Below are positions 4,008 through 27,321 of a stretch of 64,000 nucleotides of DNA, piece after piece (within the stretch, counting starts at the first letter, position 1; every line of letters starts with the position of its first letter). The stretch spans positions 2,914,001 to 2,978,000 of the forward strand of contig NZ_JACCBI010000001.1 in the NCBI RefSeq assembly GCF_013407835.1, written 5' to 3'. The position numbers and the translations under genes were made by a program. The notes beneath the pieces are model-generated. The model was not told the DNA's origin. It ran no database searches and worked only from the letters and a program-made list of their open reading frames with translations. The stretch is from Agromyces atrinae. Its GTDB lineage: Bacteria > Actinomycetota > Actinomycetes > Actinomycetales > Microbacteriaceae.

Positions 4008-4023
4008 GGTGAGGTCTACCCGA

Positions 4024-10879: not shown

Positions 10880-10992
10880 GGGTGAATCGATCCAGAGGTC
10901 GATCGCGCGGGGTGTGGAGTGCCCTGCACCAGGGTGGATTGACCTTTCGGCGGGAGGAGGGCACACGGCACCCCCGTGAATCGACCTCTCGG
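10880..10992. repeat. 71-bp repeat, family B copy 0, plus a half copy
   Basis: 10880-10950 begins GGTGAATCGATCCAGAGGTC (after one G) and ends GGATTGACCTTTCGG, matching three full 71-bp copies at 21.76-22.12 kb. A half unit (GTGAATCGACCTCTCGG) follows at 10976-10992. It occupies the convergent gap between the small conserved gene and the importer ATPase, where no gene is present. Confidence 0.82.
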
Positions 10993-11000
10993 TGATCGCC

Positions 11001-11771
11001 CTACGCCCGCCGCGCCCCGAGAGGCGTGAAGAGCAGCTGGGGTAGCCCGTCGAGTTCGGTGCGCTCGACGCCGATGCCGTAGACCCGTTCGATGATCGAC
11101 GGTTCGAGGACCTCCGACGGCGTGCCGCGGGCCACGACGCGCCCCGCCTCGAGCAGCACGAGGTCGTCGCAGTAGCGCGCGGCGAGGTTGAGGTCGTGCA
11201 GCACGACGATCGTCGTGAACGGCAGCGAGCGCACGAGCGTCAGGATCTCATGCTGGTACCGCACGTCGAGGTGGTTCGTCGGTTCGTCGAGCAGCACGTG
11301 ACGGGCCTGTTGGGCGAGCGCCCGCGCGATGAGCACCCGCTGCCGTTCGCCGCCCGAGAGGTCGTCGACCGAGCGATCGGCGAGATGCAGCACGCCGGCG
11401 AGTTCGAGCGCCTCCTCGGCGATCGACTCGTCGCCGGGGCGATAGCGGCTCCAGCCCGAGACGTGCACGCTCCGCCCGAGCAGTACCGATTCCCACGCGG
11501 TGAGCGGTAGTCCGCTCGGCTCCTCCTGCGCGACGGATGCCAGCCGCTTCGCCCGCTCGGTGTCGTGCAGGCCGTCGGCGTCGTCACCGTCGATGAGCAC
11601 GGTGCCGCCCGCGCGCCGGATCGCGCCGAGCACCGAGCGCAGCACCGACGACTTGCCCGAGCCGTTCGGCCCGATGAGACCGAGCGTCGTGCCGTCCTCG
11701 GCGGTGAGCGCCACGTCGGACGCGGCGAGGACCTGGCCGTAGCGCACGGCCAGGTCATCGACGCGGATCAT
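11001..11771 (-). CDS. ABC transporter ATP-binding protein, FecE/siderophore type
   Basis: A 256-residue ATPase of the siderophore/B12 importer class. Walker A GPNGSGKSSVL at about residues 34-44, signature DLSGGERQRVLIARALAQQ and Walker B HVLLDEPTNHLD are intact, with the class-typical switch His in VVLHDLNLAARYCDD. It is the last gene of a three-gene minus-strand operon; its start overlaps the stop of the substrate-binding protein gene (ATGA). It powers uptake through the permease at 12805. The metal or chelate is not determined by the ATPase. Confidence 0.92.
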   Translation of the reverse strand: MIRVDDLAVRYGQVLAASDVALTAEDGTTLGLIGPNGSGKSSVLRSVLGAIRRAGGTVLIDGDDADGLHDTERAKRLASVAQEEPSGLPLTAWESVLLGRSVHVSGWSRYRPGDESIAEEALELAGVLHLADRSVDDLSGGERQRVLIARALAQQARHVLLDEPTNHLDVRYQHEILTLVRSLPFTTIVVLHDLNLAARYCDDLVLLEAGRVVARGTPSEVLEPSIIERVYGIGVERTELDGLPQLLFTPLGARRA

Positions 11772-12757
11772 TCCGAGATTCTGCCGGTGGCCTCGAGCAC
11801 GGCGCGGAATCCGCGCACGGCGTCGGGGTCGGGCGAGAGGTCGCCGCCGAGCACGCCGACGACGCGGTCGTTGACGACGGCACTCAGTTCGGCCGCACCG
11901 GGCTCGCTGAGGAAGTGCGCCTTCGCCTCGTCGAACGTCTCGCCGTAGAGGCCGTAGGCGATCACGATCGTGTCGGGGTCGGCCGCGAGCAGCGTCTCGA
12001 TGTTCGCCTCGAGGTACACCGACGGCTCGTCGCCGTAGACGTTGTCGAAGCCGGCGCGATCGAGGATGTCGTTCGCGATGCCCTGGCCGCCACGGGCCGA
12101 GAGGGTCGACGACGACGAGAAGTAGTAGACGACGGCGGCCGTCTCACGCTCGGCATCGGCGGGAACGGATGACTCGAGCTCGGTGAGTTCGGCTCGGAGC
12201 TCGGTGAGACGCGCGTCGGCGGCATCCGTCGTGCCGAAGACCGTCGCGAGACGCTCGACGTCGGCGAAGATCGCGTCGAAGTCGGTCGGGTCGCTGAGCG
12301 CGGCGTCGTGGCTGCACTCGCCGTCGATGACGATGTTCGTGATGCCCGCCGCGGCGAGGTCGTCGTCGGTCGAGTTGAAGAGGCCGTAGCCCACGACGAT
12401 GTCGGCGCCCGCACCGACGATCTTCTCGGTCGTCGGGTCGGACGGGTCGACGATCTCGGCGTCGGTCGGCGGGTTCTCGAGGCCGTCGGGAAGCTCGGCG
12501 CCGAACTCGCCCGAGCGCGCGATGATGCGGTCGGAGGCGCCCGCGGCGTCGAGCAGCGAGACCGCCGACGTGCCGATCGTGAGGATCGTCTCGGGCTCGC
12601 TCTCGATCGTGAGCTCGGTGCCGCAGTTGTCGATCGTGAGCGGGTAGGCGCCGGCGCTCTCCGCCGAGGCGTCGCCGGGCGTCGAGCAGCCGGCGAGGCC
12701 GATCGCGGCGACCGCGGCGACGGCCGCGAACGCGAGACGGGTGGGTGCTGTGGTCAT
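11768..12757 (-). CDS. Metallophore ABC transporter substrate-binding lipoprotein (FecB type)
   Basis: A 329-residue periplasmic-binding-type lipoprotein: an n-region, a hydrophobic segment and the lipobox AIGLAGCSTPG near residues 18-28, so the mature protein is anchored at Cys 24. The mature part is cluster A-II (TroA-like helix-backbone) fold: DNCGTELTIESEPETILTIG is the usual opening, followed by AASDRIIARSG and GADIVVGYGLF. The length is normal for iron-siderophore binders. ATG 12757 follows an AGAGAGAA ribosome site. It may bind an iron siderophore, but its promoter shares the palindrome seen before the zinc genes, so a zinc or other metal-chelate is also possible. No cysteine or His cluster for free-metal binding is obvious. 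Confidence 0.9.
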   Translation of the reverse strand: MTTAPTRLAFAAVAAVAAIGLAGCSTPGDASAESAGAYPLTIDNCGTELTIESEPETILTIGTSAVSLLDAAGASDRIIARSGEFGAELPDGLENPPTDAEIVDPSDPTTEKIVGAGADIVVGYGLFNSTDDDLAAAGITNIVIDGECSHDAALSDPTDFDAIFADVERLATVFGTTDAADARLTELRAELTELESSVPADAERETAAVVYYFSSSSTLSARGGQGIANDILDRAGFDNVYGDEPSVYLEANIETLLAADPDTIVIAYGLYGETFDEAKAHFLSEPGAAELSAVVNDRVVGVLGGDLSPDPDAVRGFRAVLEATGRISE

Positions 12758-12804: not shown

Positions 12805-13866
12805 TCAGCGGGCGAACATGCGGCGCACGAGCACGATGAGCATCGGCGTGCCGATGAGCGCGGTGAGCACGCCGAGGGGCAGTTCGCGCGGGGCGAAGGC
12901 GGTGCGGGCGAGGGCATCGGCCCAGACGAGCAGCAGCCCGCCGAGCAGCGCCGAGACGGGGAACGTGAGGCGGTGGCTCGAGCCGACCATGCGCCGCGCG
13001 ATGTGGGGCACGACGAGCCCGACGAAGCCGATCGACCCCGAGACGGCGACGGCCGCGGCGATCGTGACGCTCACGAGCAGGGCCGCGACGGTGCGGAACC
13101 GTGTCGGGTCGGTGCCGAGGGCGCGTGCCGTGTCGTCGCCGATCGCGATGGCGTCGAAGCGCCGCGACCAGGCGAAGAGCACGATCGCGGCGAGGGCGAC
13201 GGCTCCCGCGGCGATCGGCACCGAGGCCCAGCGGGCCTGCCCGAGCGAGCCGAGCATCCAGAACAGCACGGCGCGGGTTCCGTCGCGCGATTCGCTCGCG
13301 ACGACGAGGAAGTTGGTGAGGGCGGTGAGCGCGAAGCTCACGGCGATGCCCGCGAAGACCAGACGCGAGGGCACGAGCCGCCCGCCGATGCGCGCGATCG
13401 AGAAGACGAGCACGATCGCGAGGGATGCCCCGAGGAAGGCGCTTCCGGTGAGCCCGACCGCTCCCGCGCCGACGCCGAATCCGAAGAGGATGCTCGCCGC
13501 GGCGCCCGCCGATGCGCCCGATGAGATGCCGAGCAGGTAGGGGTCGGCGAGCGGGTTGCGCACGAGCGACTGCACGGCGACGCCCGTCATGGCGAGGGCC
13601 GAGCCCACGAGCACGCCGAGCAGCACGCGCGGCACGCGGATGAGCCACACGATGTTGTCGTCGGCCGGCGACCACGTGACGTCGACGGGTGCGCCGAGGT
13701 GGAAGGCGATGATGCGAGCGACGACGTCGGGGGCGATCGAGACCGGCCCGATCCCGACGGTGACGACGACGGATGTCACGAGCCCGACGACGAGCACGAC
13801 GATGAGCGTGCCCCGTCGGGTGCGCGCCCGGGCGAGCGAAGCGGGCCTCGCGGCGAGTGTCGTCAC
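12805..13866 (-). CDS. FecCD-family metallophore ABC transporter permease
   Basis: A 353-residue permease of the FecCD family with about ten membrane segments. Family motifs are RVPRVLLGVLVGSALAMTGV (about residues 98-117), NPLADPYLLGISSGASAG and the C-terminal GFVGLVVPHIARRMVG, which forms the ATPase-coupling loop. The start is GTG 13866. The single permease probably works as a homodimer, as no second FecCD gene is present. It is the first gene of the importer operon, 85 bp from the divergent ABC exporter gene, with a perfect 15-bp palindrome in the shared promoter region. Confidence 0.93.
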   Translation of the reverse strand: MTTLAARPASLARARTRRGTLIVVLVVGLVTSVVVTVGIGPVSIAPDVVARIIAFHLGAPVDVTWSPADDNIVWLIRVPRVLLGVLVGSALAMTGVAVQSLVRNPLADPYLLGISSGASAGAAASILFGFGVGAGAVGLTGSAFLGASLAIVLVFSIARIGGRLVPSRLVFAGIAVSFALTALTNFLVVASESRDGTRAVLFWMLGSLGQARWASVPIAAGAVALAAIVLFAWSRRFDAIAIGDDTARALGTDPTRFRTVAALLVSVTIAAAVAVSGSIGFVGLVVPHIARRMVGSSHRLTFPVSALLGGLLLVWADALARTAFAPRELPLGVLTALIGTPMLIVLVRRMFAR

Positions 13867-13913: not shown

Positions 13914-13928
13914 TGATAACGGTTATCA
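13914..13928. promoter_or_regulatory. Perfect 7-1-7 palindrome, putative metal-repressor (Zur/Fur-like) operator
   Basis: TGATAAC-G-GTTATCA is a perfect inverted repeat placed between two divergent operons (importer starting 13866, exporter/RiPP operon starting 13952). The 7-1-7 form is that of Fur-family operators. TGAGAAC-A-GTTATCA at 25084 differs in one arm base and the centre and lies before the AztD/AztC zinc operon, so Zur is the best guess. It does not match the DtxR-like boxes at 62.66-62.70 kb. Confidence 0.68.
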
Positions 13929-13951: not shown

Positions 13952-15685
13952 GTGATCCATTCACGCCTCATCCGACTGGGCCGCGGCGCCCGTCAACCGC
14001 TCGTCGTCGTCACGGTCCTCGGCCTCGTGCTGAGCGCCCTCGCGGTCATCCAGGCGTTCGCGCTCGCCACGGTCTTCAGCTGCATCGTCGCGGGCACCCC
14101 CATCGACGCCCTCGCTCCCGCCCTGGTGGTCGTCGCCGTCGCACTCCTCGTGCGCCCCGTGTTCGTCGCGCTCCGCGAACTCGCCGTACACTCCGTCGCC
14201 GGCGCCGTCACCCGCTCCGTGCGCGGCCGACTCCTCGACGCCGAGGCCGCCGCCGGCCCCCTCGCTCGGCCCGACGCCCGCACGGGCACCCGGCAGTCGC
14301 TCCTCACCGACGGCGTCGACGGGCTCGAACCGTACTTCGGTCGCTACGTGCCCCAGGTCGTCGTGACCGCCGTGACGGTCGTCGCCGTCGTCACGATCCT
14401 CATTGCCCTCGACCCCGTCGTCGGCCTCGTGACCGCGATCATCGCCGCGACGGTGCCGTTCGTTCCGCGCCTCTGGGACCGCGCGCTCCAGGCCCGCGGT
14501 GACGACCACTGGTCGGCCTACTCCGACATGAACGCCGACGTCGCCGACAGCCTCCGCGGCATGGAGACCCTCAAGCTCCTCGGCGCGACGACCGATCGCC
14601 GTCGCACCCTCACCGAGTCGAGCGCGCGGCTGCTGCACGCGACGCTCGGGCAGCTGCGACTCTCGCTCCTCGAATCCGGTCTGACCGGCTTCCTCCTCAT
14701 CGCCGGTCCGGCTGCCGCGCTCCTCGCCGCCGTCGTACGCATCGCATCGGGGGACCTCGCCGCGGCGAGCGTGTTCACGGTGACCCTTCTCGCCTTCGAG
14801 GCGTTCCGCCCGTTCCGCGAGCTCGCCAACCACTGGCACGCCGGCTACCTCGGAGTCTCGGCGGGCGGTCGGGTGCTCGCGGCACTCGACGGCGAGCCCG
14901 GTCGCGCGCGGTCGGTGCAGACGACGGATGACGCGCCGAGCGTCATCCCCGACGACGAGGCGATCGTGTTCGACGACGTGACGTTCCGCTACCCCGGCGC
15001 CGAGCAGGCGAGCCTTCACGGGTTCGACCTCCGCATCGCGCGGGGGTCGGTCGTCGCCGTCGTCGGCCCGTCGGGCGCGGGCAAGTCGACCCTCGTCAAC
15101 CTCGTGCTCGGCTTCGGCGACCCCGAGGAGGGCCGCGTCAGCGTGCTCGGACATGCCGCGCGCGATGCGGCACCCGGAACCGTCGCACTCGTCTCGCAGG
15201 ACCCCGTGCTCTTCTCGGGCACGATCCGTGAGAACCTCCGCCTCGTCGCGCCCGGGGCGAGTGATGACGACCTCGCCGCCGCCCTCGAGCGTGCCCATGC
15301 CGCCGACCTCGTGGCCCACGGCCTCGACTCACCCGTCGGCGACGGGGGAGCGCTGCTCTCGGGCGGCGAGCGTCAACGCGTCGCGATCGCCCGCGCGCTG
15401 CTCATGAACGCCCCGATCATCGTGCTCGACGAAGCATCGAGTGCTCTCGACGCGCGCGCCGAGCGCCACGTGCTGGGCGACCTCCGCGCCGCGACGCTGC
15501 CCGACGGGAGCGGGGTCACGGTGCTCGTCATCGCGCACCGCCTCGCGGCTCTCCGGCACGTCGACGAGGTCATCGTCGTCGACGACGGGCGCGTCGTCGA
15601 GCGCGGCGGTTTCGACGAGCTCGCCGCGGGTGACGGGCTGTTCGCTCGCCTCCTCGACGCGCAGACGGATCGAGTCGACGCGTGA
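13952..15685 (+). CDS. ABC exporter half-transporter (CydD-like), first subunit
   Basis: A 577-residue fusion of a six-segment membrane domain (residues about 15-310) and an ATPase. Walker A GPSGAGKSTLVN, signature LLSGGERQRVAIARA and Walker B IIVLDEASSALDA are intact. By sequence it resembles CydD of the CydDC cysteine/glutathione exporter, and automatic annotation would call it so. However, no cytochrome bd genes are in view and it is coupled to a peptide precursor and YcaO genes, so peptide export is a better contextual reading. GTG 13952 is used because GGAG precedes it; the ATG at 13942 is out of frame. The next gene starts within its stop. Confidence 0.88.
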   Translation: MIHSRLIRLGRGARQPLVVVTVLGLVLSALAVIQAFALATVFSCIVAGTPIDALAPALVVVAVALLVRPVFVALRELAVHSVAGAVTRSVRGRLLDAEAAAGPLARPDARTGTRQSLLTDGVDGLEPYFGRYVPQVVVTAVTVVAVVTILIALDPVVGLVTAIIAATVPFVPRLWDRALQARGDDHWSAYSDMNADVADSLRGMETLKLLGATTDRRRTLTESSARLLHATLGQLRLSLLESGLTGFLLIAGPAAALLAAVVRIASGDLAAASVFTVTLLAFEAFRPFRELANHWHAGYLGVSAGGRVLAALDGEPGRARSVQTTDDAPSVIPDDEAIVFDDVTFRYPGAEQASLHGFDLRIARGSVVAVVGPSGAGKSTLVNLVLGFGDPEEGRVSVLGHAARDAAPGTVALVSQDPVLFSGTIRENLRLVAPGASDDDLAAALERAHAADLVAHGLDSPVGDGGALLSGGERQRVAIARALLMNAPIIVLDEASSALDARAERHVLGDLRAATLPDGSGVTVLVIAHRLAALRHVDEVIVVDDGRVVERGGFDELAAGDGLFARLLDAQTDRVDA

Positions 15686-17478
15686 GTGCTCCCCGGGCAG
15701 CGCTCGGCCCCGTCATCCGTCTGCTCGGCGTCGTCGGGTCGGAGCGGGCGCTCTTCGTGCGCTCGACGCTCTCGATGACGGCGTATCAGCTCGCCGCCGC
15801 GGCGGCCTCGGGCACGAGTGCCGCGATCGCCGCGGCCGTCGCGTCGGGGCGCGGCGCCGACCCCGTGGTCGCCCTGCTCATCGCCGGTCTCGTGGCCGCG
15901 GTCGTCGCGGTCGCCCTCTTCACCTGGATCGAATCGTGGCTGAGCCACGTGCTCGCCTACCGCGTCATCGACGGCCTGAGGGTGCGCGTGTACGACGCGC
16001 TCGAGGCGATCACGCCCGCGCGCTCGGGTCGCCGACGTGCGGGAGCCGTCGCCGGAACAGCGCTCGGCGACGTCGAGACGCTCGAGTGGTTCTACGCCCA
16101 CACCCTCGGTTCGGCGATCAACGCGATCGTCTCGCCGGCGCTCGTCGGCGTCGTGCTCGTCGTGCTCGTCGGCCCCGTCGGCCTGCTCGTGCCGGCCGGA
16201 GTCGCGCTCCTCCTCGTCATCCCCGCGGTGCTCGGCTCGCTGCAGGCGCGTCAGGGTGCGCGCATCCGTGAGGAGCTCGGGTCGCTCCGGGCGACGGCGT
16301 TCGAGGGTGCCGAGGCGCAGCGCGAGATCCACGCGCTCGGGCTCGTCGGCCACCACCGTGCCGAGGTGCTCGCCGCGACGGGCCGTGTGCACCGCGCCAA
16401 GCGCGCGTTCGCCCTGCGCGCCGCGGGTGAGAGTGCGCTCGCCGACGTCGTCGTCGCCGTGACGACGCTCGGCTTCCTCACCGCGCTCGTGGCGCGTGTC
16501 GCCGCGGGCGAGGTCGACCCCGTTCTCGTTCCCGCCGCGATGGTGCTCGTCGGGGCGGCCATCGCACCCGCGGCCGGGGCCTTCGCGATGGTGCAGCGAC
16601 TCGGCGAGATGTCGGCCGCCGCGAGCCGCGTGCTCGACCTGCTCGACGAGACCGACCCCGTGCCGCCCGGCGGCGACGACGCCCCCGGCGACGGCCGCGG
16701 CGAGCTGCGCTTCGAGGGCGTCGGCTTCGGCTACGCGCCGGGCCCGCGCGTGCTCGACGGCCTCGACCTCGTCATCCGGCCGGGCGAGTCGGTCGCACTC
16801 GTCGGCGCGTCGGGCGCGGGCAAATCGACGATCGCACGCTTGCTCGTGCGCTTCTGGGACCCGGATGACGGTCGCATCGTGCTCGACGGCCGCCCACTGA
16901 CATCCGTCGACCCCGTGCGCGTGCGTCGCGAGATCGCCCTCGTCGCGCAGCATCCGTTCGTCTTCCGCGGCACCGTGCGCTCGAACCTGCTGATCGCCCG
17001 CCCGGATGCCGACGACGACGCGTTGCGCGGAGCCCTCGCCGACGCGGGCCTCGCCGAGACGGTCGAGTCGTGGCCGCTCGGTCTCGACCAGCCCATCGGC
17101 GAACGCGGCGCGACCCTGTCGGGCGGGCAGCGACAGCGCCTCGCGATCGCCCGCGCCTTCCTCCGCGATCCCGCCGTGCTCGTGCTCGACGAAGCCTCGG
17201 CCCACCTCGATGCGCTTCGCGAGAACGACCTCGCCGACACGATCGACCGCGTGCGCGCGGGGCGCACGACGATCGTCATCGCGCACCGCATCTCGACGAT
17301 CCGCCGCTCCGCGCGGGTCGTCATGCTCGGCGACGGCCGCGTCGTCGCCGACGGCAGCCACGACGACCTCCTCGCGAGCGAGCCGCGCTACCGCGCCCTG
17401 CTCGCGCGCGAGGACCACGGGGAACGGGTGGGCGCGGCAGGCGCCCGCCCCGACCCCACCGATGAGGAGAGGAGGTGA
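15682..17478 (+). CDS. ABC exporter half-transporter (CydC-like), second subunit
   Basis: A 598-residue half-transporter with an N-terminal membrane domain and a C-terminal ATPase. Walker A GASGAGKSTIARLL, signature TLSGGQRQRLAIARAF and Walker B VLVLDEASAHLDA are intact. GTG 15682 overlaps the stop of the first subunit, and the two should form a heterodimer. There is no N-terminal C39 peptidase domain, so any leader removal must be done elsewhere. Its stop lies inside the strong ribosome site of the 36-residue precursor gene five bases downstream, which links it to that peptide. CydC remains an alternative by homology. Confidence 0.88.
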   Translation: MSAPRAALGPVIRLLGVVGSERALFVRSTLSMTAYQLAAAAASGTSAAIAAAVASGRGADPVVALLIAGLVAAVVAVALFTWIESWLSHVLAYRVIDGLRVRVYDALEAITPARSGRRRAGAVAGTALGDVETLEWFYAHTLGSAINAIVSPALVGVVLVVLVGPVGLLVPAGVALLLVIPAVLGSLQARQGARIREELGSLRATAFEGAEAQREIHALGLVGHHRAEVLAATGRVHRAKRAFALRAAGESALADVVVAVTTLGFLTALVARVAAGEVDPVLVPAAMVLVGAAIAPAAGAFAMVQRLGEMSAAASRVLDLLDETDPVPPGGDDAPGDGRGELRFEGVGFGYAPGPRVLDGLDLVIRPGESVALVGASGAGKSTIARLLVRFWDPDDGRIVLDGRPLTSVDPVRVRREIALVAQHPFVFRGTVRSNLLIARPDADDDALRGALADAGLAETVESWPLGLDQPIGERGATLSGGQRQRLAIARAFLRDPAVLVLDEASAHLDALRENDLADTIDRVRAGRTTIVIAHRISTIRRSARVVMLGDGRVVADGSHDDLLASEPRYRALLAREDHGERVGAAGARPDPTDEERR

Positions 17479-17483
17479 CATCA

Positions 17484-17594
17484 ATGCAGAACATCACCGT
17501 CACGCAGATCGCGACCGAGCGTTCCGAGGAGCAGATCCTCGCGCCCAACGCGAACAACCACGGCCACGTGTCCACCGCGTTCGCCTGGGCGTAA
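17484..17594 (+). CDS. Candidate RiPP precursor peptide (36 residues)
   Basis: A short gene starting ATG 17484 with a near-perfect AGGAGGTGA ribosome site at 17470-17478 that overlaps the exporter stop. The peptide has a leader-like first half, MQNITVTQIATERSEE (1-16), then QILAPNA, and a distinct C-terminal part NNHGHVSTAFAWA (24-36) with two His, one Ser, one Thr, one Trp and no Cys. It lies between an exporter pair and two YcaO-family genes, the normal place of a RiPP precursor, and a strong stem-loop follows it. If the YcaO makes azolines, Ser 29 and Thr 30 are the only hydroxyl targets in the tail; backbone thioamide or amidine formation would not need Cys. I recognise no described precursor family. 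Confidence 0.75.
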   Translation: MQNITVTQIATERSEEQILAPNANNHGHVSTAFAWA

Positions 17595-17603
17595 GCCCAC
17601 CCT

Positions 17604-17637
17604 CGGGTGCCCCGCTCCTCCGCGGGCGGGGCACCCG
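17604..17637 (+). terminator. Stem-loop between precursor and YcaO genes (possible partial terminator)
   Basis: A perfect 12-bp stem (CGGGTGCCCCGC at 17604-17615 with its complement at 17626-17637) and 10-base loop starts ten bases after the precursor stop. There is no T-tract, so read-through is likely. Such structures between precursor and enzyme genes commonly keep precursor mRNA in excess. The gap from here to 17675 holds nothing else. Confidence 0.65.
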
Positions 17638-17674
17638 TACATCCCGCCGCCCCGTCTCAGAATGCGAATCGACC

Positions 17675-19882
17675 ATGACCCTCCGCACCTCACTCGCCAC
17701 CGCCGCCGAGGTCCGCGCCCTCCCCGGTGGGCGCACCCTCGTCACCACACCGGCCGACTCGTCGTTCGCCGTCGACGTCGCCCCCGACCAGGTGCTCCGC
17801 ATGCTCGACGCGTGGAGCGGCCTCGCGGACTCCGAACTCCTCCCCGACGGATGGCGTGAGAGCGCCGCCGTCCTGCTCGACGTGCTCGAACGCGATGGCG
17901 CGTTCGCCGCACCCGCCGAGATCCCCGACCTTCCGCCGCTCGCCGCGGACACGGATGACGGTGCGGGCGTCACCGCGGGTGATCTGCTCGTCATCGGAGA
18001 CCCCGACATCGTCGCGGCGGTGCACGCCGCGCTTCGAGCGATCGACGGCCCCGCCGTGCGCACCGTGCCGGCGGATGACTGGCAGCGCGTCATCCACCGC
18101 GCCTTCCGCACGGGCGAGCTGCTCGTGCACGCCGTGCGCGGCGGCGACGACGCGACGCTCATCGCCTTCGACCGGCTGTGCTCCGACGCGCGTACGCCGT
18201 GGGTCGCGCTCGAACTGACGCGATCGACCCTGTGGCTCGGGCCGTTCGTCGATCCCGGTCGTGGCGCGAACTACGAGGACTTCGCGGCGCGCCGCACGGC
18301 CGCGGCCTTCGACGCCGTCGCGCACCGGGCACTCCGCACGCCCGCCGTCGGCGGTGACTGCGGCTCAGTACCCGCGGCTCTCGGGGCCGCGTTCGCGAGC
18401 GCTGCGGACGTGCTCGCGGGCGCCCACCCGGCCGACCTCGTCATCGAGATCGACGCCGCGGGCGGAATGTCGCGGCACCCCGTGCTGCCGCTCCCGGGCA
18501 GCGTGACCGAGCACGTCGTCGCCCACTCGCCGGCCGATCTCGTCGACCGGGTGACGGGCCTCGTGCAGCGCACGCGCGACGTCGTGCACCACCCGTCGAT
18601 CCCGACCGCGCTCGCGACGGCGCAGAGCGACGTCTGCAACATGCGCCGCGTCTCGCGCTGGGCCAACAACACCTCGTGCCAGGGCTCAGCGTTCGGCGAT
18701 GTGACGCAGGCGCGCGACAGCGCCGTGGGCGAGGCCGTCGAACGGTACTGCGGCAACCTGCTCGACACGCTGCCCGTGACCTACGGCTCCTTTGCCGAGC
18801 TCAGTCGAGGCCCCGTGCGCGTGCTCGACCCCGACTCTCTCGTTCTGTACTCCGACACCCAGTACGACACCCCCGGCTTCCCCTTCGTGCGGCTCACCCA
18901 CGACCTGCCCGTGCACTGGGTGCCCGGCCGTTCGCTCACGACGGGCGAGGAGCTGCTCGTGCCCGCGAGCATGGTCTACGTCAACTGGTTCACCGCCGGA
19001 TACTCGAGCGCCCCGGTGACGAACTTCTGCCCCTTCGCGGGCATCGCCGCAGGCCCGAACCTCGACTACGCGATCACGTCGGCGCTCGAGGAGATCATCG
19101 AGCGCCACGTCACGATGGTGTGGTGGCTGAACGCGCACCCGTTCGACGCCGTCGACCCGGGCGCGCTCGCCGAGGTGTGGCGGGGCGTGCCGGATGACGC
19201 GGGCCAGCGCCCCTCGATCATCATGCTCGACAACGAGTTCGGGGTGCCGGTCGCGGCCGGCGTCCTGCACAACGACGTCGACGACCTCGTCAACGTGGGC
19301 TTCGCGAGCCGGCACACCGCCGAGGCCGCGGCCTCGAAGGCGTGGACCGAGGCGTGCACCCTGCAGGAGGGCAGTCGCGATCTGCTGCGTGCCGACGGAG
19401 CGCACTGGGATGCCATGGCCCGCGGCGAACTCAACAGCCGCTCCTTCAAGCCGTGGCGTGCCGATCGCCGCTACCTCGACTCGTATCGCGACGACATGCG
19501 CGACTGCGACGACCTCATGGTGCAGCAGCAGGTGTTGCTCGATCCGCGAGCCGTGCGTCGCGTCGCACCGCTCCTCGACCGACCGGTGACGCGCACCTTC
19601 GCCGACATCTCCTCTCTGCCCGCACGCACGCCCGCCGCCTACCAGCGGGCGATCGAGGATGCCGGTCACGAGGTCATCGTCGTCGACATCACGTCGCCCG
19701 ACATCGCCTCGACGGGTATGGCCGCGGTGCGCGTGATCGTGCCGGGAACCGTCGGCAACGCTCCCGCGGCGTTCCCGTTCCTCGGTCACGGCCGGGTGCA
19801 GGACCTCGCCGTCGAACTCGGCTGGCGCGAGACGCGACTCGACGAATCGGAACTCAACCACTTCCCGCTGCCGCACGCATGA
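17675..19882 (+). CDS. Fused E1-like leader-binding domain plus YcaO cyclodehydratase (RiPP-modifying enzyme)
   Basis: A 735-residue protein. Residues 1-220 resemble the E1-like/RRE partner of azole-forming enzymes: DLLVIGDPDIVAAVHAAL at 103-120 is a dinucleotide-type strand-turn, and LWLGPFVDPGRGANYEDF at 186-203 matches the family's GP-PG loop but lacks its usual Cys. Residues about 300-735 are a YcaO domain, which uses ATP to activate peptide backbone amides for azoline, thioamide or amidine formation. The Mg-ATP motifs are present: SAVGEAVERYCG (349-360), LEEIIERHV (471-479) and QEGSRD. The C-terminus ends FPLPHA, a PxP-like tail. ATG 17675 agrees with an N-terminus of this type. The degenerate YcaO next to it overlaps by four bases. 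Confidence 0.88.
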   Translation: MTLRTSLATAAEVRALPGGRTLVTTPADSSFAVDVAPDQVLRMLDAWSGLADSELLPDGWRESAAVLLDVLERDGAFAAPAEIPDLPPLAADTDDGAGVTAGDLLVIGDPDIVAAVHAALRAIDGPAVRTVPADDWQRVIHRAFRTGELLVHAVRGGDDATLIAFDRLCSDARTPWVALELTRSTLWLGPFVDPGRGANYEDFAARRTAAAFDAVAHRALRTPAVGGDCGSVPAALGAAFASAADVLAGAHPADLVIEIDAAGGMSRHPVLPLPGSVTEHVVAHSPADLVDRVTGLVQRTRDVVHHPSIPTALATAQSDVCNMRRVSRWANNTSCQGSAFGDVTQARDSAVGEAVERYCGNLLDTLPVTYGSFAELSRGPVRVLDPDSLVLYSDTQYDTPGFPFVRLTHDLPVHWVPGRSLTTGEELLVPASMVYVNWFTAGYSSAPVTNFCPFAGIAAGPNLDYAITSALEEIIERHVTMVWWLNAHPFDAVDPGALAEVWRGVPDDAGQRPSIIMLDNEFGVPVAAGVLHNDVDDLVNVGFASRHTAEAAASKAWTEACTLQEGSRDLLRADGAHWDAMARGELNSRSFKPWRADRRYLDSYRDDMRDCDDLMVQQQVLLDPRAVRRVAPLLDRPVTRTFADISSLPARTPAAYQRAIEDAGHEVIVVDITSPDIASTGMAAVRVIVPGTVGNAPAAFPFLGHGRVQDLAVELGWRETRLDESELNHFPLPHA

Positions 19883-21648
19883 CGCGGATCGCCGTGTACG
19901 CGCTCGGTGCCGACCGGCTCGTCGTCTGCGGCGACGCGGGCGAGCGCTGGGTGCTCGACGTCGGTGCGGAGCGGCTGGGTGAGCCCGCGGTCGTGCAGGT
20001 GCTCGACGGGCTGCGCGCGTCGGGGCCCGATGCGGTCTCGCCCGTGTGCGGGGAGCACGATGCGATCGTCGGTTCGCTCGCGGACGTCGTCGAACTCGGT
20101 GCGCGTGACGCCGATGCGGGGGCGAGTGTCGTCGTGTGGCGCTACGGCTCGCGGCACGTGCGGATGCTCCTCGACGGGCGTGGCCGGCATCGGAATGCGC
20201 TCGACGCGCGCGACGCGCTGCTCTCGACGGTCGACGATGCCGAGATGGCTCGGGCCTTCGCGCGTCATCCGCTCGTGGACGACGTCGTGCTCGCGCGCAC
20301 CGGGCGGCTCGACGCTCCTACGCCGGGGGTGCTGCAGTGCGCGGATGACGGAGGCTGGGGCGATCACGCGATCGATCCGGCTCCACTCGTCGACGCGCTC
20401 ACCGGCATCCTCCACCGGGTACGGAAGCGCCCGGTCGACCTCGCGCTGCCGCCCGGATTCGAGCACTGGCATGCCGAGCTGCCGTTCCTGTCGAGCATCG
20501 ACGCGCGGTGGCTGCCCGATCCGCTCGCGCCCGCGGGGGCGTTCATCGGCGCGGTCGAGTCGGGGCGAGAGGCCGCGATCCGGTCGGGGGTCGCGCACTA
20601 CTGCGGCGCGTACCTCGGGCAGGGTGCGCGCGTCTACGCGTCCGAGGCGGAGCTCGCGGGCGAGCGTGTGCTGACGATCGCGCAGTGGCGCCCGCACGAC
20701 CCCGTGCTCGATCGGGAGCCTGGGTTTCCGTTCGCGCCCGTCGCGCCGGACGAGCGGCTGTGGTGGCTGCGCGGCAGCGACGACGACGGGCCGTGCGTCA
20801 CACCGCTGAGCCTCGTGCACGCGGGATACCTGCAGGCCGCGCTGCCGGGCATGCGCGCGACGAACGGACACAACCTCGGCGGGCTGCAGGCCGGAGCGAG
20901 TCTCGCCGAGGCCGTCGAGCGGGCGTGCGCCCACGTCGTCGCTCATGATGCCGTCGCGCGATGGTGGGATTCGGGTGACGCACTGGGCGAGGTGCCGGTG
21001 CCGTCGGTCGTCGCGGACGCGTGGGGCGGCTCCGACCTCGCGCTGCGCGTGCTCGCCGTGCCGGCGGTCGGCGGGTTGCCCGTTCGGCTCGCGGTTGTCG
21101 ACGACGGGCACGCGAACATCGTCTCGCTCGGCTTCGCGGGGCACGCCGACGCCGACGAGGCCGGGGTGCTCGCCGTCGTCGAGGCGCTCATCCAGCACGC
21201 GTCGGCGCGGGATCTCGATCGGCCCGACAGTCTCATCCGCGATGCCGGGAAGCTCGGCAACGGGGGAGTCGCGGGGCTGCGGGAGCACTCGCCCGCGCGC
21301 GACTACGCCGACGCCTTCGGTGACGATCACCGCGGACTCATCGACCCCATGGCGCACGTGCAGTTCGGCCTCGACCCGCGCGTCGTGGCCGAGACGCGGC
21401 GGCGTGTGGTGGGTGCGGGGGTTCCTGCGGGCTCAACCTCGGCTGCGGCGGCGACTTCGGCGGCGACCTCGGCTCGGAGGGCGCTCCGCGACACGGGGCA
21501 CCGCGTCGTCACGGTCGACGTCACGACCGATCGGGTGCGTCGCGCCGGGATGCACGCCGCCCGCGTTCTCGTTCCCGGCCTCGCGCGGCTGCAGCCCGCC
21601 GCGTTCCCGCTCACCGTCGGAGGCGGCACCCCCTACCCCGGCTGGTGA
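19879..21648 (+). CDS. Second YcaO-like protein with degenerate ATP motifs
   Basis: A 589-residue protein whose C-terminal two-thirds align by pattern with the preceding YcaO. AIRSGVAHYCGAYLG (233-247) corresponds to SAVGEAVERYCG, but both Glu and the Arg are replaced. TNGHNLGGLQAGASLAEAV (328-346) keeps the NG-AxG loop, but the EIIERH-type helix reads HVVAHDAVARWW. It ends GGTPYPGW, again PxP-like. The N-terminal 220 residues are not clearly assignable. The losses suggest a non-catalytic YcaO that binds or positions the peptide and pairs with the upstream enzyme. It starts in the upstream stop (ATGA) and is the last gene of the operon. Confidence 0.78.
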   Translation: MTRIAVYALGADRLVVCGDAGERWVLDVGAERLGEPAVVQVLDGLRASGPDAVSPVCGEHDAIVGSLADVVELGARDADAGASVVVWRYGSRHVRMLLDGRGRHRNALDARDALLSTVDDAEMARAFARHPLVDDVVLARTGRLDAPTPGVLQCADDGGWGDHAIDPAPLVDALTGILHRVRKRPVDLALPPGFEHWHAELPFLSSIDARWLPDPLAPAGAFIGAVESGREAAIRSGVAHYCGAYLGQGARVYASEAELAGERVLTIAQWRPHDPVLDREPGFPFAPVAPDERLWWLRGSDDDGPCVTPLSLVHAGYLQAALPGMRATNGHNLGGLQAGASLAEAVERACAHVVAHDAVARWWDSGDALGEVPVPSVVADAWGGSDLALRVLAVPAVGGLPVRLAVVDDGHANIVSLGFAGHADADEAGVLAVVEALIQHASARDLDRPDSLIRDAGKLGNGGVAGLREHSPARDYADAFGDDHRGLIDPMAHVQFGLDPRVVAETRRRVVGAGVPAGSTSAAAATSAATSARRALRDTGHRVVTVDVTTDRVRRAGMHAARVLVPGLARLQPAAFPLTVGGGTPYPGW

Positions 21649-21756: not shown

Positions 21757-21827
21757 GGGTGAATCGATCCAGAGGTCAATCCCCCAGGGTGGCGGGCCCA
21801 CAACACCCGTATGGATTGACCTTTCGG
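21757..21827. repeat. 71-bp repeat, family B copy 1
   Basis: Runs from GGGTGAATCGATCCAGAGGT to ATTGACCTTTCGG; AGGTCAATC near the left end pairs with GATTGACCT near the right. The 663-bp gap 21649-22311 holds this, copies 2 and 3, a 16-bp tandem repeat and no gene. Confidence 0.85.
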
Positions 21828-21928
21828 TCGGCGCGGTGGCCGAAACGGGTGAGGTGAGCGGGCAGGGTGAGGTGGGGTGGGCAGGGCGAGGTGGGCGTGC
21901 ACGCGTCATCCCTCGGCTCCTCTTTCTC

Positions 21929-21999
21929 GGGTGAATCGATCCAGAGGTCAATCGCTCGGGGTGGTGAGCTCTCGGCACCGGTGTGGATTGACCTTTCGG
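21929..21999. repeat. 71-bp repeat, family B copy 2
   Basis: Same ends and length as copy 1, with a different centre. The preceding spacer (GTGCACGCGTCATCC then TCGGCTC) recurs before copy 3, so the spacer was partly duplicated too. Confidence 0.85.
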
Positions 22000-22045
22000 T
22001 GAGGGAGGTGCGCGTGCACGCGTCATCCGTCGGCTCTCCTTCTCC

Positions 22046-22116
22046 GGGTGAATCGATGCAGTGGGCGATCGCTCGGGGTGGTGGGCCCCGGGCACCCGTA
22101 TGGATTGACCTTTCGG
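22046..22116. repeat. 71-bp repeat, family B copy 3
   Basis: Same length; the left arm is diverged (GATGCAGTGGGCGATCG in place of GATCCAGAGGTCAATC) while the right end GGATTGACCTTTCGG is intact. Confidence 0.82.
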
Positions 22117-22160
22117 TGGGGGAGGGCGCGCGCGAGCGGATGACGCGGGCGCGCGCACCT

Positions 22161-22224
22161 CGCAAACAGGGCCGTTCGCAAACAGGGCCGTTCGCAAACA
22201 GGGCCGTTCGCAAACAGGGCCGTT
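22161..22224. repeat. Four perfect tandem copies of a 16-bp unit
   Basis: CGCAAACAGGGCCGTT repeated four times without change or spacer, 88 bp upstream of the alcohol dehydrogenase start. It could be an iteron-like regulator array or a slipped-strand tandem expansion. Confidence 0.92.
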
Positions 22225-22311
22225 CACCTCGAGGTAACCCGCCGTTGGCGACCGCGGCCTACGGTGACCCGACAAGAGCGCCGCGGTCGCGGCGACGGGG
22301 AGGGGAGCCCG

Positions 22312-23532: not shown

Positions 23533-24225
23533 TCAGTGCGCCGGAAGGAATGCCTCGCTGAGCCGCGCCTCATCGAGCGCCTCGGCCGGTGAGCCCTCGA
23601 AGGCGATGCGCCCGCGCGCCATGAGCACGCAGCGGTCGGCCCGTCGTGCGCTCTCGAGGTGGTGCGTCGCCGTGACGACCGTCGTCCCGCGAGAGACCTC
23701 GTCGGCGATGACGTCGTCGATGATCTGCTGAGCCTCGGAATCGAGGCCCGTCGCGGGTTCGTCGAGCAGCAGCAGAGGAGCCCGTTGCGCGAGGCCCTGC
23801 GCGACGAGGGCTCGTTGCCGTTGCCCGCCCGAGAGCTCCCCGAGCCGTCGGTCGGCGAGGTCGGTGAGACCGAGGCGGTCGATGCACGCGTCGATGAGGG
23901 TGTGGTCGGCGCGCGTCATCCGTCGCCAGAGGCCGCGCTCGGCCCAGCGGCCCATCGCGACCGTGTCGCGCACGGTGACCGGCAGCCGGTCGGAGGCCTC
24001 GCTCCGCTGCACGACGAACGCGACGCCGGGGGCCGCGAGCTCGACGTGACCGGCGCTCGGTCGCTCGACGCCGGCGATCACCGAGAGCAGTGTCGACTTG
24101 CCCGAGCCGTTCGGGCCGAGAAGCGCGGTGTGGGTGCCGGGCGCGAGGTCGAGGTCCACACCGTCGAGCGCGCGCACGCGCCCGTACGAGACGACGGCGC
24201 CGCGGACCGACGCGCTGAGAACCAT
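23533..24225 (-). CDS. aztA: Zinc ABC transporter ATP-binding protein AztA
   Basis: A 230-residue ATPase of the manganese/zinc/iron-importer class. Walker A GPNGSGKSTLLS, signature LSGGQRQRALVAQGLAQR, Walker B LLLLDEPATGLDSEAQQ and the switch His in VVTATHHLESARR are intact. The call as AztA rests on the neighbouring AztB, AztC and AztD genes. Candidate starts are ATG 24225 (MVLSASVRG) and ATG 24237, with no ribosome site before either; TAGTCT lies upstream at a -10-like distance, so a leaderless transcript is possible. It is divergent from aztB, with the metal-operator-like sequence over its start. Convergent with the dehydrogenase gene. Confidence 0.88.
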   Translation of the reverse strand: MVLSASVRGAVVSYGRVRALDGVDLDLAPGTHTALLGPNGSGKSTLLSVIAGVERPSAGHVELAAPGVAFVVQRSEASDRLPVTVRDTVAMGRWAERGLWRRMTRADHTLIDACIDRLGLTDLADRRLGELSGGQRQRALVAQGLAQRAPLLLLDEPATGLDSEAQQIIDDVIADEVSRGTTVVTATHHLESARRADRCVLMARGRIAFEGSPAEALDEARLSEAFLPAH

Positions 24226-24236
24226 AATCATTACCA
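24222..24236. promoter_or_regulatory. Zur-like AT-rich element over the aztA start
   Basis: CCATAATCATTACCA contains an ATAAT-C-ATTA core in an otherwise GC-rich region and lies in the 27-bp divergent promoter between aztA (24225) and aztB (24253). The match to the perfect box at 13914 is only partial (inner four bases of each arm form the palindrome). Confidence 0.5.
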
Positions 24237-24252
24237 TTTAGACTAGCCCCTC

Positions 24253-25062
24253 GTGACCTGGCTCCTCGAACCCTTCGCGACCGAATTCATGGTGCGCGCC
24301 CTCCTCGGCGGCGCGCTCGTGTCGCTCGTCTGCGCCGTCGTCGGCACATGGGTCGTGGTGCGCGGCCTGGCCTTCCTCGGCGAGGCGATGGCGCACGGCA
24401 TGCTGCCCGGCGTCGCGACCGCGGCTCTGCTCGGCGCGCCCGCCGCGCTCGGTGCCGGCGTCGCCGCGGTCGCCATGGCCGTCGGCGTCACGGCCGTCTC
24501 GCGTCGCGCGAAGCTCGCCCAGGACACCTCGATCGGCCTGCTCTTCGTCGGCATGCTCGCCCTCGGTGTCATCATCGTGTCGGCGTCACGCGGCTTCGCG
24601 GTCGACCTCACGGCGGTGCTGTTCGGAGACATCCTCGCGATCACGTGGGCCGATGTCGGCTGGCTCGCCGTCGCCGCAGTCGTCGCCGTCGTCTTCTGCG
24701 CACTCATGCACCGCGCGTTCGTCGCACTCGCGTTCGATCAGCGGAAGGCCGCGACGCTCGGGCTCCGTCCCGCGTTCGCGCACTACGCGCTACTCGGAGC
24801 CGTCGCGCTCGCCGTCGTCGCGTCGTATCAGGCCGTCGGTACGCTGCTCGTCGTCGGATTCCTCATCGCTCCGCCCGCGACGGCCGCCCTCTGGGTGCGT
24901 CGCCTGCCGTCGATCATGGCGCTCGCGGTCGGGTTCGGAGTGCTCGCGACCGTCGTCGGCCTGCTCGTCTCGTGGCACCTCGGCAGCGCCGCGGGGGCCA
25001 CGATCGCCGCGAGTGCCATCGCGTTCTTCGCGGTCTCGGCGCTCGTCCGCCGTGCGGTGTGA
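24253..25062 (+). CDS. aztB: Zinc ABC transporter permease AztB
   Basis: A 269-residue permease of the ABC-3 (ZnuB) family with about eight membrane segments. Family features are ALLGGALVSLVCAVVGTWVV at the N-terminus, RGLAFLGEAMAHGMLPG (about 37-53), RRAKLAQDTSIGLLFVGMLA and DQRKAATLGLRP. It moves zinc delivered by AztC, powered by AztA. The start is GTG 24253. Unlike usual ABC operons, the ATPase gene is on the opposite strand and the binding protein is third downstream in this direction. A 72-bp gap with an operator-like palindrome separates it from the AztD-like gene. Confidence 0.9.
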   Translation: MTWLLEPFATEFMVRALLGGALVSLVCAVVGTWVVVRGLAFLGEAMAHGMLPGVATAALLGAPAALGAGVAAVAMAVGVTAVSRRAKLAQDTSIGLLFVGMLALGVIIVSASRGFAVDLTAVLFGDILAITWADVGWLAVAAVVAVVFCALMHRAFVALAFDQRKAATLGLRPAFAHYALLGAVALAVVASYQAVGTLLVVGFLIAPPATAALWVRRLPSIMALAVGFGVLATVVGLLVSWHLGSAAGATIAASAIAFFAVSALVRRAV

Positions 25063-25083
25063 CCGTCCGCGCCGATTTGAGAA

Positions 25084-25098
25084 TGAGAACAGTTATCA
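25084..25098. promoter_or_regulatory. 7-1-7 palindrome before the AztD/AztC operon, putative Zur operator
   Basis: TGAGAAC-A-GTTATCA, six of seven arm positions paired; the right arm is identical to that of the perfect palindrome at 13914. It is 36 bp before the GTG start of the AztD-like gene, a normal place for a repressor site. Confidence 0.68.
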
Positions 25099-25134
25099 AT
25101 AAGGTCGGAGTCACGCCACCCGGAAAGTGACACC

Positions 25135-26364
25135 GTGCCCCACCTCTCAGCGCCTTGGCGCGCCACCCCCCTTCTCTTCGCCGTTCTCGCCACGACCGCC
25201 CTCGCCGCTTGCGCGACGAGCCCCGCCGAACCCGCAGGCGACGCCGACACCGCGAAGCCGCACGGCTACGTCGAGGGCGCGAGCGAGATGCCCGAGCCGC
25301 AATCGCGCCTCGTCTACTCCGATGCCGCCGGCGACGTGCGTCTGCTCGACCTGCTGAGCGAGGCCGACGAGCCGCTCGCGAGCGTCGGCCCGATCACCGG
25401 CACGTCGAGCGACGGCCGCTTCACCTTCGCCGCCGGCGCCGACGGCGTCAGTGTCATCGACGCGGGTGCCTGGACCGTCGACCACGGCGACCACATGCAC
25501 TACTACCTCGCCGAGGCGCGCAGCGTCGGCACCGTCGACGGCGCGGCCGCGGCGGCGGTCGCCTCCTCCGCGACCCGCACGGCCGTCTTCTTCGCGGATG
25601 ACGGTGAGGCCGTCATCCTCGACCGCGACGCCCTCGGCACGGATGACGTCGCCGAACTCACCCGCTTCGAGACCGCACCGCACGCCGGTGTCGTGGTTCC
25701 CTTCGCCGACGGCTTCCTCGCGACGATGCCCGGTGCCGACGGCATCGCCGATCGTGTCGCGCTGCTCGACGCCGATGGCGCACCCGTCGACGGAGTCGGG
25801 GCGGCGTGCCCGGCCGTCGGCGGTGAGCGCCAGACGCGCGTCGGCGTCGTGTTCTCGTGCGCGGACGGCGCGCTGCTCGCGACCGAGACCGACGGCGAGG
25901 TCGCCTTCGAGCACGTCGCCTACCCCGAGGGAGCGGCGACACGAGCCGGAGCCCTCGACAACCGCGCCGGTCGACCGGCCGTCGGGGCCGTCGCGGGAGA
26001 CGCGGGTGCCTGGCAGTTCGACTCGCGCGCTCGGGAGTGGACCTTCATCGCGACCGACACGCCCCTCGTCGCCGTGAGCGCCGTCGGCGACGACGAGCAC
26101 CTCCTCGTCGCGGTCGACTCCACCGGACGCGTGCTCGTGCTGAGCGCCCCCGACGCGGCCGTCATCGCCGCGAGTGAACCGCTGCTCGCGTCATCCGCCG
26201 CCGAGCGCCCCGCCGAGATCGGCCTCGTCGTCGACGCGTCCCGCGCGTACGTCTCGGGGCCCGCCGAGAGCGTGATCCTCGAGATTGACTACCGCGACGG
26301 TGCGCGAGTGGCGAGGTCGTTCGCGACCCCGGTCGCGCCGATCGGCCTGGAGCTCGCCGGATGA
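25135..26364 (+). CDS. AztD-like zinc-chaperone lipoprotein, first copy
   Basis: A 409-residue lipoprotein: signal segment TPLLFAVLATTALAACATSP with lipobox LAAC, then a low-complexity linker and a beta-propeller-like mature part. The stretch VIDAGAWTVDHGDHMHYYLA (about residues 105-124) carries a His/Asp-rich metal site typical of AztD zinc chaperones, which hand zinc to AztC outside the membrane. A second His motif lies at FETAPHAGVVVPFADG. GTG 25135 is used. It overlaps the AztC start by four bases (ATGA). It is more diverged from the usual AztD than the copy at 27322, so a separate role is possible. Confidence 0.82.
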   Translation: MPHLSAPWRATPLLFAVLATTALAACATSPAEPAGDADTAKPHGYVEGASEMPEPQSRLVYSDAAGDVRLLDLLSEADEPLASVGPITGTSSDGRFTFAAGADGVSVIDAGAWTVDHGDHMHYYLAEARSVGTVDGAAAAAVASSATRTAVFFADDGEAVILDRDALGTDDVAELTRFETAPHAGVVVPFADGFLATMPGADGIADRVALLDADGAPVDGVGAACPAVGGERQTRVGVVFSCADGALLATETDGEVAFEHVAYPEGAATRAGALDNRAGRPAVGAVAGDAGAWQFDSRAREWTFIATDTPLVAVSAVGDDEHLLVAVDSTGRVLVLSAPDAAVIAASEPLLASSAAERPAEIGLVVDASRAYVSGPAESVILEIDYRDGARVARSFATPVAPIGLELAG

Positions 26365-27269: not shown

Positions 27270-27321
27270 GCTGTTCCTGCCCACGCACCCGCACCACGCA
27301 CCACGGAAAGAGAGAACCACC

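Follow-up and report, generated by a model that had tools for sequence, protein, structure and literature searches.

A putative zinc-regulated RiPP operon with divergent importer genes in Agromyces atrinae, a candidate zincophore pathway

Coelibactin, staphylopine and pseudopaline are zincophores assembled by nonribosomal peptide synthetases or opine-type enzymes without a ribosomal precursor, and it is from enzymes of these kinds that the small-molecule zincophores in the papers found come. All three are Zur-regulated, with biosynthesis repressed by zinc, and the staphylopine operon also encodes its own ATP-binding cassette (ABC) importer, as described in the available part of PMC8000910. Scavenging of zinc by a ribosomal product is as such not new, because ZepA of Anabaena, according to the accessible part of PMC10957091, is a secreted, ribosomally made protein for extracellular zinc uptake that is raised in a zur mutant. 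Here, we describe a five-gene operon and its divergent neighbours in a 64,000-nucleotide stretch of Agromyces atrinae DNA (the window, whose positions are used throughout), which resemble the small-molecule systems in predicted zinc-repressed biosynthesis, staphylopine in the presence of importer genes and ZepA in the ribosomal origin of the product; unlike the exoprotein ZepA, this product would be a small, enzyme-modified peptide.

A conserved precursor, a modifying enzyme, an exporter and an importer are encoded together, which is the gene content of a metallophore of the ribosomally synthesized and post-translationally modified peptide (RiPP) type. The locus is best explained as a Zur-controlled RiPP pathway whose product acts as a zincophore, that is, a ribosome-made, enzyme-modified zinc scavenger, a reading to which we assign a probability of about 0.7. 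It draws on the gene set, the conservation of the peptide, the intact active site of the YcaO-type enzyme Y1, the degenerate state of its partner Y2, the Zur-type boxes shared with zinc genes and the co-occurrence of the substrate-binding protein FecB with YcaO, all read from sequence; metal binding by the product is suggested by the conserved Asn/His residues and the Zur-like box. A first-pass annotation had proposed a RiPP operon with a short precursor, an exporter pair and an E1-like/YcaO fusion, and domain matches, fold, gene order in relatives and the peptide alignment all bear this out, the precursor proving to be conserved. It delimited the five-gene set correctly, leaving outside its bounds the divergent FecE-FecB-FecCD genes and the Zur-like box; the spacer hairpin and the degeneracy of Y2 also went unnoticed.

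The precursor peptide and its gene neighbourhood

Five forward open reading frames (ORFs), spaced by -4, +5, +80 and -4 bases, encode the exporter halves ABC1 and ABC2, the peptide, Y1 and Y2 (Table 1), and their coordinates agree with the single operon proposed earlier. As that annotation also had it, the precursor lies between the exporter and YcaO genes, has a near-perfect ribosome site (AGGAGG at 17470-17475, 8 nt 5' of the ATG) and contains no Cys among its 36 residues.

A profile search of genome contigs with a 36-sequence Y1 alignment, made of the window sequence and 35 of 215 Y1-related proteins found, of which 120 were listed, yielded 79 loci. The order FecE-FecB-FecCD, divergent, then ABC1-ABC2-peptide-Y1 is kept without exception in the 15 nearest relatives whose upstream DNA is available (L005-L012, L014-L020), and the peptides at the same gene position share APN-x-[NH][NH]H-[GA]-H...F-x-W, loosened to AP..[NH]H...W in distant relatives. 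The expectation that the gene set recurs with a conserved short peptide thus holds among these 15. The window peptide was aligned with 33 relatives' peptides taken from beside YcaO genes, that of L029 (IAPQNHPDARLSFVW...) being excluded for its long tail. Among these 34 sequences, the Pro of 'AP' is invariant (34/34), the Ala nearly so (33/34), one His and the Trp occur in 31/34 each, and the two positions preceding the conserved His are Asn or His in 33/34 and 34/34.

A short ORF with a Shine-Dalgarno-like site and [NH]H...W, a pattern composed after viewing the peptides of the first branch of relatives (class I) and five of a second (class II), lies near the YcaO gene, in a stretch reaching 4 kb upstream and 0.9 kb downstream of its ORF start, in 45 of the 79 loci, one match (L057) looking accidental; the remaining 2.74 million strand-bases contain 1 match. 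In the 34 unmatched loci, a short peptide at this position is accordingly not borne out by the pattern; many of them are distant YcaO clusters, some lie at contig ends (L013, L021 and L026 among them), four have a peptide of a different form (L029, L032, L045 and L052), and one is L070, whose peptide nonetheless sits in the alignment. A chance ORF was rejected in view of the positional conservation, the alignment with 33 relatives and the 45/79 loci against 1 background match. Within the genus, the 36-residue query was found in 1/60 genomes, the window's own.

The spacer between the precursor and Y1 folds into a strong RNA hairpin in 8/8 cases (the window and seven chosen relatives, some spacers shortened), with z from -1.98 to -5.06. 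Hairpins 3' of RiPP precursor genes frequently restrict downstream expression, and this one possibly does so too. A Pfam scan found no peptidase domain in ABC1 or ABC2.

Table 1. Positions of the operon, its divergent promoter and the importer genes in the window
Feature	Position	Strand	Evidence
FecE-type ATPase, metallophore/B12-type importer	11001..11771	-	TIGR03873 252.7 bits, below cut-off 372.4; same place in relatives
FecB-type substrate-binding lipoprotein	11768..12757	-	PF01497 69.7 bits, cut-off 27.5; LAGC lipobox read from sequence
FecCD-type permease	12805..13866	-	PF01032 294.6 bits, cut-off 26.5
Zur-like box TGATAACGGTTATCA	13914-13928	.	divergent promoter, in the 85-bp gap between FecCD and ABC1
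ABC1, exporter half, CydD-like	13952..15685	+	TIGR02857 (best NCBIfam model) 367.7 bits, below cut-off 435; PF00664 and PF00005
ABC2, exporter half, MsbA/CydC-like	15682..17478	+	TIGR02204 291.1 and TIGR02868 288.5 bits (best NCBIfam models), both below cut-off; PF00664 and PF00005
Precursor peptide, 36 residues (MQNITVTQIATERSEEQILAPNANNHGHVSTAFAWA)	17484-17594	+	leader about 1-19, core APNANNHGHVSTAFAWA; predicted cleavage point
RNA hairpin, precursor-Y1 spacer	17604..17637	+	spacer folds at -34.6 kcal/mol, z -2.65
Y1, E1-like/YcaO fusion	17675..19882	+	putative RRE-like N-terminus; E1-like about 97-282; active-type YcaO about 284-735; PF02624 177.6 bits, cut-off 25.7
Y2, degenerate (pseudo-)YcaO ending PYPGW	19879..21648	+	PF02624 79.3 bits, cut-off 25.7

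On the flanks of the operon lie four 'gggtgaatcgat ... ggattgacctttcgg' stretches, starting at 10880, 21757, 21929 and 22046 (10880-10950, 21757-22117), and four copies of a 16-bp unit, gcaaacagggccgttc, begin at 22162 (22162-22225). The ORFs at 4009, 7257 and 28675 have no Pfam match and may be wrong frames.

Two unequal YcaO-family proteins and their likely chemistry

Y1 exceeds the cut-off of the SagD-type maturase model TIGR03604 of NCBIfam (242.9 bits against 219.25), its fold is LynD/TruD-like with structural neighbours 4v1u, 4bs9 and 7u58, and the residues of the ATP/Mg type are intact. Residues 1-96 fall outside the structural alignment rows shown; their beta-beta-beta-helix secondary-structure pattern, taken alone, suggests a RiPP recognition element (RRE)-like domain.

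Y2 stays below the TIGR03604 cut-off (96.2 bits), aligns to Y1 with hhalign at E 2e-51 and gives a structure model with a predicted local distance difference test score (pLDDT) of 88.3. The equivalents of E353, E356, E472, E473 and E476 are Glu in 0/16 aligned copies, and that of E559 is kept as Glu in 4/16. These copies are the window protein and those of 15 relatives; of the 17 relatives that have a Y2-like ORF, L013, on the same contig as L015, and L017 were omitted. Since the ATP/Mg-type glutamates are missing in all 16, Y2 appears to be a pseudo-YcaO, and the idea of two active YcaO enzymes was rejected on the same ground: the earlier count of two YcaO proteins stands, both matching PF02624, and the wording 'two YcaO enzymes' overstated it. 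A Y2-like ORF follows Y1 in 17/17 of L005-L021, and in 15 of them, as called by script, it overlaps the Y1 stop by 1-8 nt (L017 and L020 differ); no Y2 match was found 3' of Y1 in the 20 other loci checked (L022-L037, L045, L052, L059 and L070). A third YcaO-family protein of the same genome (C1:1609038-1609886; L003 1381-2955, minus strand; 57.4 bits) has no recognised ABC, Fec or peptide gene beside it within a short stretch.

One rival reading makes the product an ordinary azoline peptide of the linear azol(in)e-containing peptide (LAP) or thiazole/oxazole-modified microcin (TOMM) kind, in which Y1 would cyclise core Ser/Thr to oxazolines, which might themselves be the ligands if the zinc control is not incidental. 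Besides the SagD-family score and the LynD/TruD-like fold, the combination of an E1-like domain with a YcaO domain whose ATP-site residues are intact speaks for it, as does the presence of at least one Ser, Thr or Cys in 33/34 aligned cores. Against this, no core Ser/Thr/Cys column rises above 16/34, the L031 core APHNHAVQAAVFGWN has none of the three, and Cys occurs in L032 only. No SagB-type (PF00881) match was found among the operon proteins and the Pfam-scanned part of their neighbours; a SagB-type enzyme is dispensable for azolines. Because no core Ser/Thr/Cys is conserved and one relative has none, azoline formation, which the first-pass annotation had named alongside related backbone changes, is doubtful, and an azoline peptide is an unlikely explanation of the locus, if the best placed of those set against the zincophore reading.

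The likely reactions of Y1 can be ranked, with a non-azoline amide change (amidine or thioamide) appearing the most plausible, ATP-dependent cleavage of the MusD type second and an oxazoline at a non-conserved Ser/Thr third. Cleavage comes into question through MusD, a structural neighbour of Y1 that is reported to cleave peptides with ATP (PMC10885120). As for thioamides, a YcaO-TfuA pair is reported to thioamidate Asn (PMC13174530), and Asn backbones can therefore be YcaO targets. YcaO-TfuA thioamidation in the window itself was rejected, given that PF07812 is absent from the operon proteins and from the Pfam-scanned neighbours, which cover part of the window ORFs.

Probable zinc control and the divergent importer

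The 3.65 Mb genome has three matches to TGATAANNNTTNTCA, one at the RiPP promoter and the others in front of a znuA-like gene and an AztD-like/AztC operon, with 0 for the reversed-pattern control, and up to three mismatches to TGATAACNGTTATCA are found at 20 genome places versus 3 in the control. The second site is separated by 19 bp from the His-rich znuA-like gene (L084), whose best model, AztC, scores 236.9 bits, under cut-off. Downstream of this gene come genes for an ATPase and a permease as in metal importers, and a Fur-family gene whose place suggests that it is Zur; a second Fur-family gene is present in the genome. The third is at window position 25084, before the AztD-like gene and AztC. 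The surrounding region, 23533-28512, comprises aztA (minus strand), aztB, the AztD-like gene, aztC and aztD, about 1.9 kb beyond the RiPP operon. The Zur-like box of this region spans 25084-25098, and the stretch between aztA and aztB has weaker ones at 24216-24222.

A matrix built from the two zinc-gene sites, with the RiPP site excluded, was scored over relatives' loci and placed the RiPP promoter first of 29-57 tiles per locus in 19/23 relatives and among the top three in 22/23. This ranking covers the 23 of 79 loci with ABC1 just upstream of Y1, including L063 of class II and L009, whose promoter interval was placed by hand. Column-permuted matrices that retain the AT bias (n=300) gave a mean of 5.4 of 23 and a maximum of 16, with 0/300 reaching 19; since they performed far worse, the idea that AT-richness alone produces the ranking was rejected. 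Nine further high-scoring sites in relatives' loci were inspected, four of which precede genes with a zinc link: a Cys-less L32 paralogue and AztD in L018, a CobW/COG0523-type GTPase in L005, and L33-L31 genes adjoining another COG0523-type gene in L070 (ribosomal and L070 names assigned by eye). The known targets of Zur include COG0523 genes and ribosomal paralogues that do without zinc (PMC2770081). With a Zur-type box common to the zinc genes of its own genome, the operon apparently belongs to the Zur regulon, and the earlier hint at metal starvation is probably right, with zinc the most likely metal.

The importer genes FecE-FecB-FecCD lie directly upstream of ABC1. Of the 33 class I relatives, 24 have both FecCD and FecE, and 18 have FecB. 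A FecB orthologue at 68% identity is found, among 249 family genomes, only in G253 and the window's own, and G253 carries a Y1 at 74%; eight other family genomes have FecB-like proteins at 33-37%, and G266, with a YcaO at 45%, has no FecB at the threshold of that orthologue search. Such co-occurrence fits FecB as receptor for the product, one independent genome being little. For the window FecB, FecCD and FecE proteins, the NCBIfam models that score best or nearly so, all below cut-off, are named 'putative F420-0 ABC transporter', a label that may lead the annotation of RiPP-linked importers astray.

The system is rare near the window's lineage: with the window's genome included, Y1 relatives at E<=1e-100 occur in 3/249 family genomes and those at E<=1e-60 in 20/394 class genomes. 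All class I loci are actinobacterial except L028 and L035, which are from Acidobacteriota. A search of a plasmid collection returned three distant YcaOs, and the one on a Rhodococcus plasmid is just 31% identical to Y1 over 62% of its length. In L045 and L052 (Actinomyces gerencseriae and Schaalia cardiffensis), the peptides are of the form LAPNSNHHP..., and the YcaO, importer and exporter genes are all co-directional.

Distant actinobacterial clusters appear to repeat the same plan. This second branch (class II; L051, L053, L054, L056, L058, L060, L062-L064, L067-L069, L071, L078 and L081) has peptides such as MKVKKLKVQARNAAVHSSNHATVAPAKTAWR, of the VHSSNHAT...AWR type, in Actinomadura, Herbidospora, Spongiactinospora, Planobispora, Thermocatellispora, Actinocorallia, Micromonospora, Acrocarpospora and Nocardioides. 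In these 15 loci, listed by hand and each with a class II-type peptide match, the promoter of the peptide or of ABC1 carries a Zur-like site that comes first in 13/15 and among the top three in 15/15, six loci being scored at two places and L063 entering both this count and the previous one. FecCD and FecE are found in 13/15 (L060 reaches the end of its DNA), where they lie 3' of the YcaO genes, a gene order unlike that of class I. L054 has in addition a further YcaO, TfuA and a peptidase S15-like protein, and thioamides are likely there because of the further YcaO and TfuA.

Competing explanations and relation to known systems

Several observations weigh against a zincophore. On the importer side, FecCD was not found in the available DNA of 9/33 class I relatives (L022, L023, L024, L027, L028, L034, L035, L037 and L070); in L025, L030, L031, L033, L036 and L059, the divergent FecCD is just 30-35% identical with FecB undetected, and may therefore belong to another importer; FecB was detected in just 2/15 class II loci; and the closest NCBIfam model of the window FecB, TIGR03868, is below cut-off, which leaves the ligand assignment putative. 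On the side of control, the Fur-family gene at the znuA-like operon matches iron-regulator models only, below cut-off; AT-rich promoters alone yield the mean of 5.4 of 23 given above; the permuted-matrix control covers the 23-locus ranking and not that of class II; and five of the nine secondary sites lack an evident zinc gene (L005 21920, L009 628, L030 13624 and 18059, L070 6953). Among the relatives without FecCD, L023, L024, L027 and L037 have no Zur-like site near the peptide, and L022, L028 and L035 have weak or distant ones only; L034 was omitted from this scoring, and L070 has a strong site 3.7 kb upstream, at the ribosomal and COG0523-type genes. Three loci (L032, L045 and L052) have an importer and no Zur-like box seen at the operon, the L032 promoter ranking 21 of 54 and L045 offering just 0.5 kb upstream of the peptide. 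Given such relatives, the peptide/YcaO family extends beyond its zinc-linked members.

Another rival idea is that the peptide is an antimicrobial or a signal made under zinc starvation, with FecB, FecCD and FecE forming a separate importer of another metallophore, own or foreign, that shares the promoter. The nine class I relatives that carry peptide and YcaO without FecCD favour it, and RiPP antibiotics commonly have a pair of ABC exporter proteins. It sits poorly with the co-occurrence of the FecB orthologue and a close YcaO in two family genomes, few as these are, and their absence at the thresholds elsewhere except for the one 45% YcaO; with the retention of FecCD/FecE in class II clusters despite the different gene order; and with a core of conserved Asn/His residues rather than a variable, diversifying one. 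We regard this account as improbable. That the product is a metallophore for copper, cobalt or nickel, regulated by zinc only, is a slim prospect: FecCD/BtuC-type importers carry many ligands, as the family names show, and His-containing peptides bind Cu2+ well, whereas zinc uptake genes have the same promoter box, as do ribosomal protein paralogue genes of the zinc-sparing type in the loci of two relatives.

Under the zincophore reading, zinc starvation would cause Zur to leave its box, switching on both divergent units. The RRE/E1-like part of Y1 would recognise the leader of the precursor, and the YcaO domain of Y1, partnered by Y2, would use ATP to alter at least one backbone amide of the core. 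The modified product would be exported by ABC1-ABC2 and bind Zn2+ through its His side chains, probably together with the altered backbone; FecB would then capture the zinc complex for import by FecCD/FecE, working beside AztABCD, which would serve zinc itself. Of these steps, the chemistry, the transport in both directions and the binding of Zur and of zinc are inferred.

If this is true, zinc-binding sites would be readable and changeable in a 17-residue gene-encoded core, and a function would be given to orphan YcaO clusters and to FecBCE transporters nearest to the 'putative F420-0 transporter' models; a core free of Ser/Thr/Cys raises the question of what YcaO does there. More tentatively, the locus may represent the first class of RiPP zincophores, with at least two branches in Actinomycetota (APN.NHHGH...W and VHSSNHAT...AWR), in which an Asn/His-directed backbone change by an E1-like/YcaO enzyme, without a Ser/Thr/Cys nucleophile, builds the zinc site, aided in the first branch by a dead YcaO partner. 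No YcaO-made or other RiPP zincophore was found among the matches listed in the open-licence literature, outside which most subscription papers fall.

Methanobactin, bufferins and the thiooxazole peptides of multinuclear non-heme iron-dependent oxidases (MNIOs) are likewise ribosomal and metal-binding, chiefly copper-binding. They rely on MNIO-type enzymes, whereas the window operon has YcaO and a Zur-like box; among its larger proteins, Pfam finds ABC-transporter and YcaO families over cut-off and no MNIO (MbnB)-type family. The cyanobactin enzymes LynD, TruD and MusD (4v1u, 4bs9 and 7u58) are like Y1 in fold and ATP/Mg-type residues, and their systems differ from the window operon, which has a core without conserved Cys/Ser/Thr, an extra pseudo-YcaO partner and other surrounding genes. 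Coryneazolisins, which have two D proteins, were rejected as a match, since their Cys/Ser/Thr-rich cores and dehydratases, as described in the part of PMC4603692 compared, are unlike the window operon. The mobilisins of the same source (Cox 2015, PMC4603692) come closer, pairing an actinobacterial fused cyclodehydratase with a short Cys/Ser/Thr-poor peptide; they are reported with a B protein, the text compared mentions no importer, zinc link or function, and by this published description they may overlap with class I. In the std cluster of Streptomyces thermodiastaticus, as far as the available part of PMC13174530 describes it, the backbone change made by a YcaO likewise falls on a conserved motif of the core, at its Asn. 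That YcaO works with TfuA, an MNIO and a carbamoyltransferase, of which TfuA was found in L054 and not in the window.

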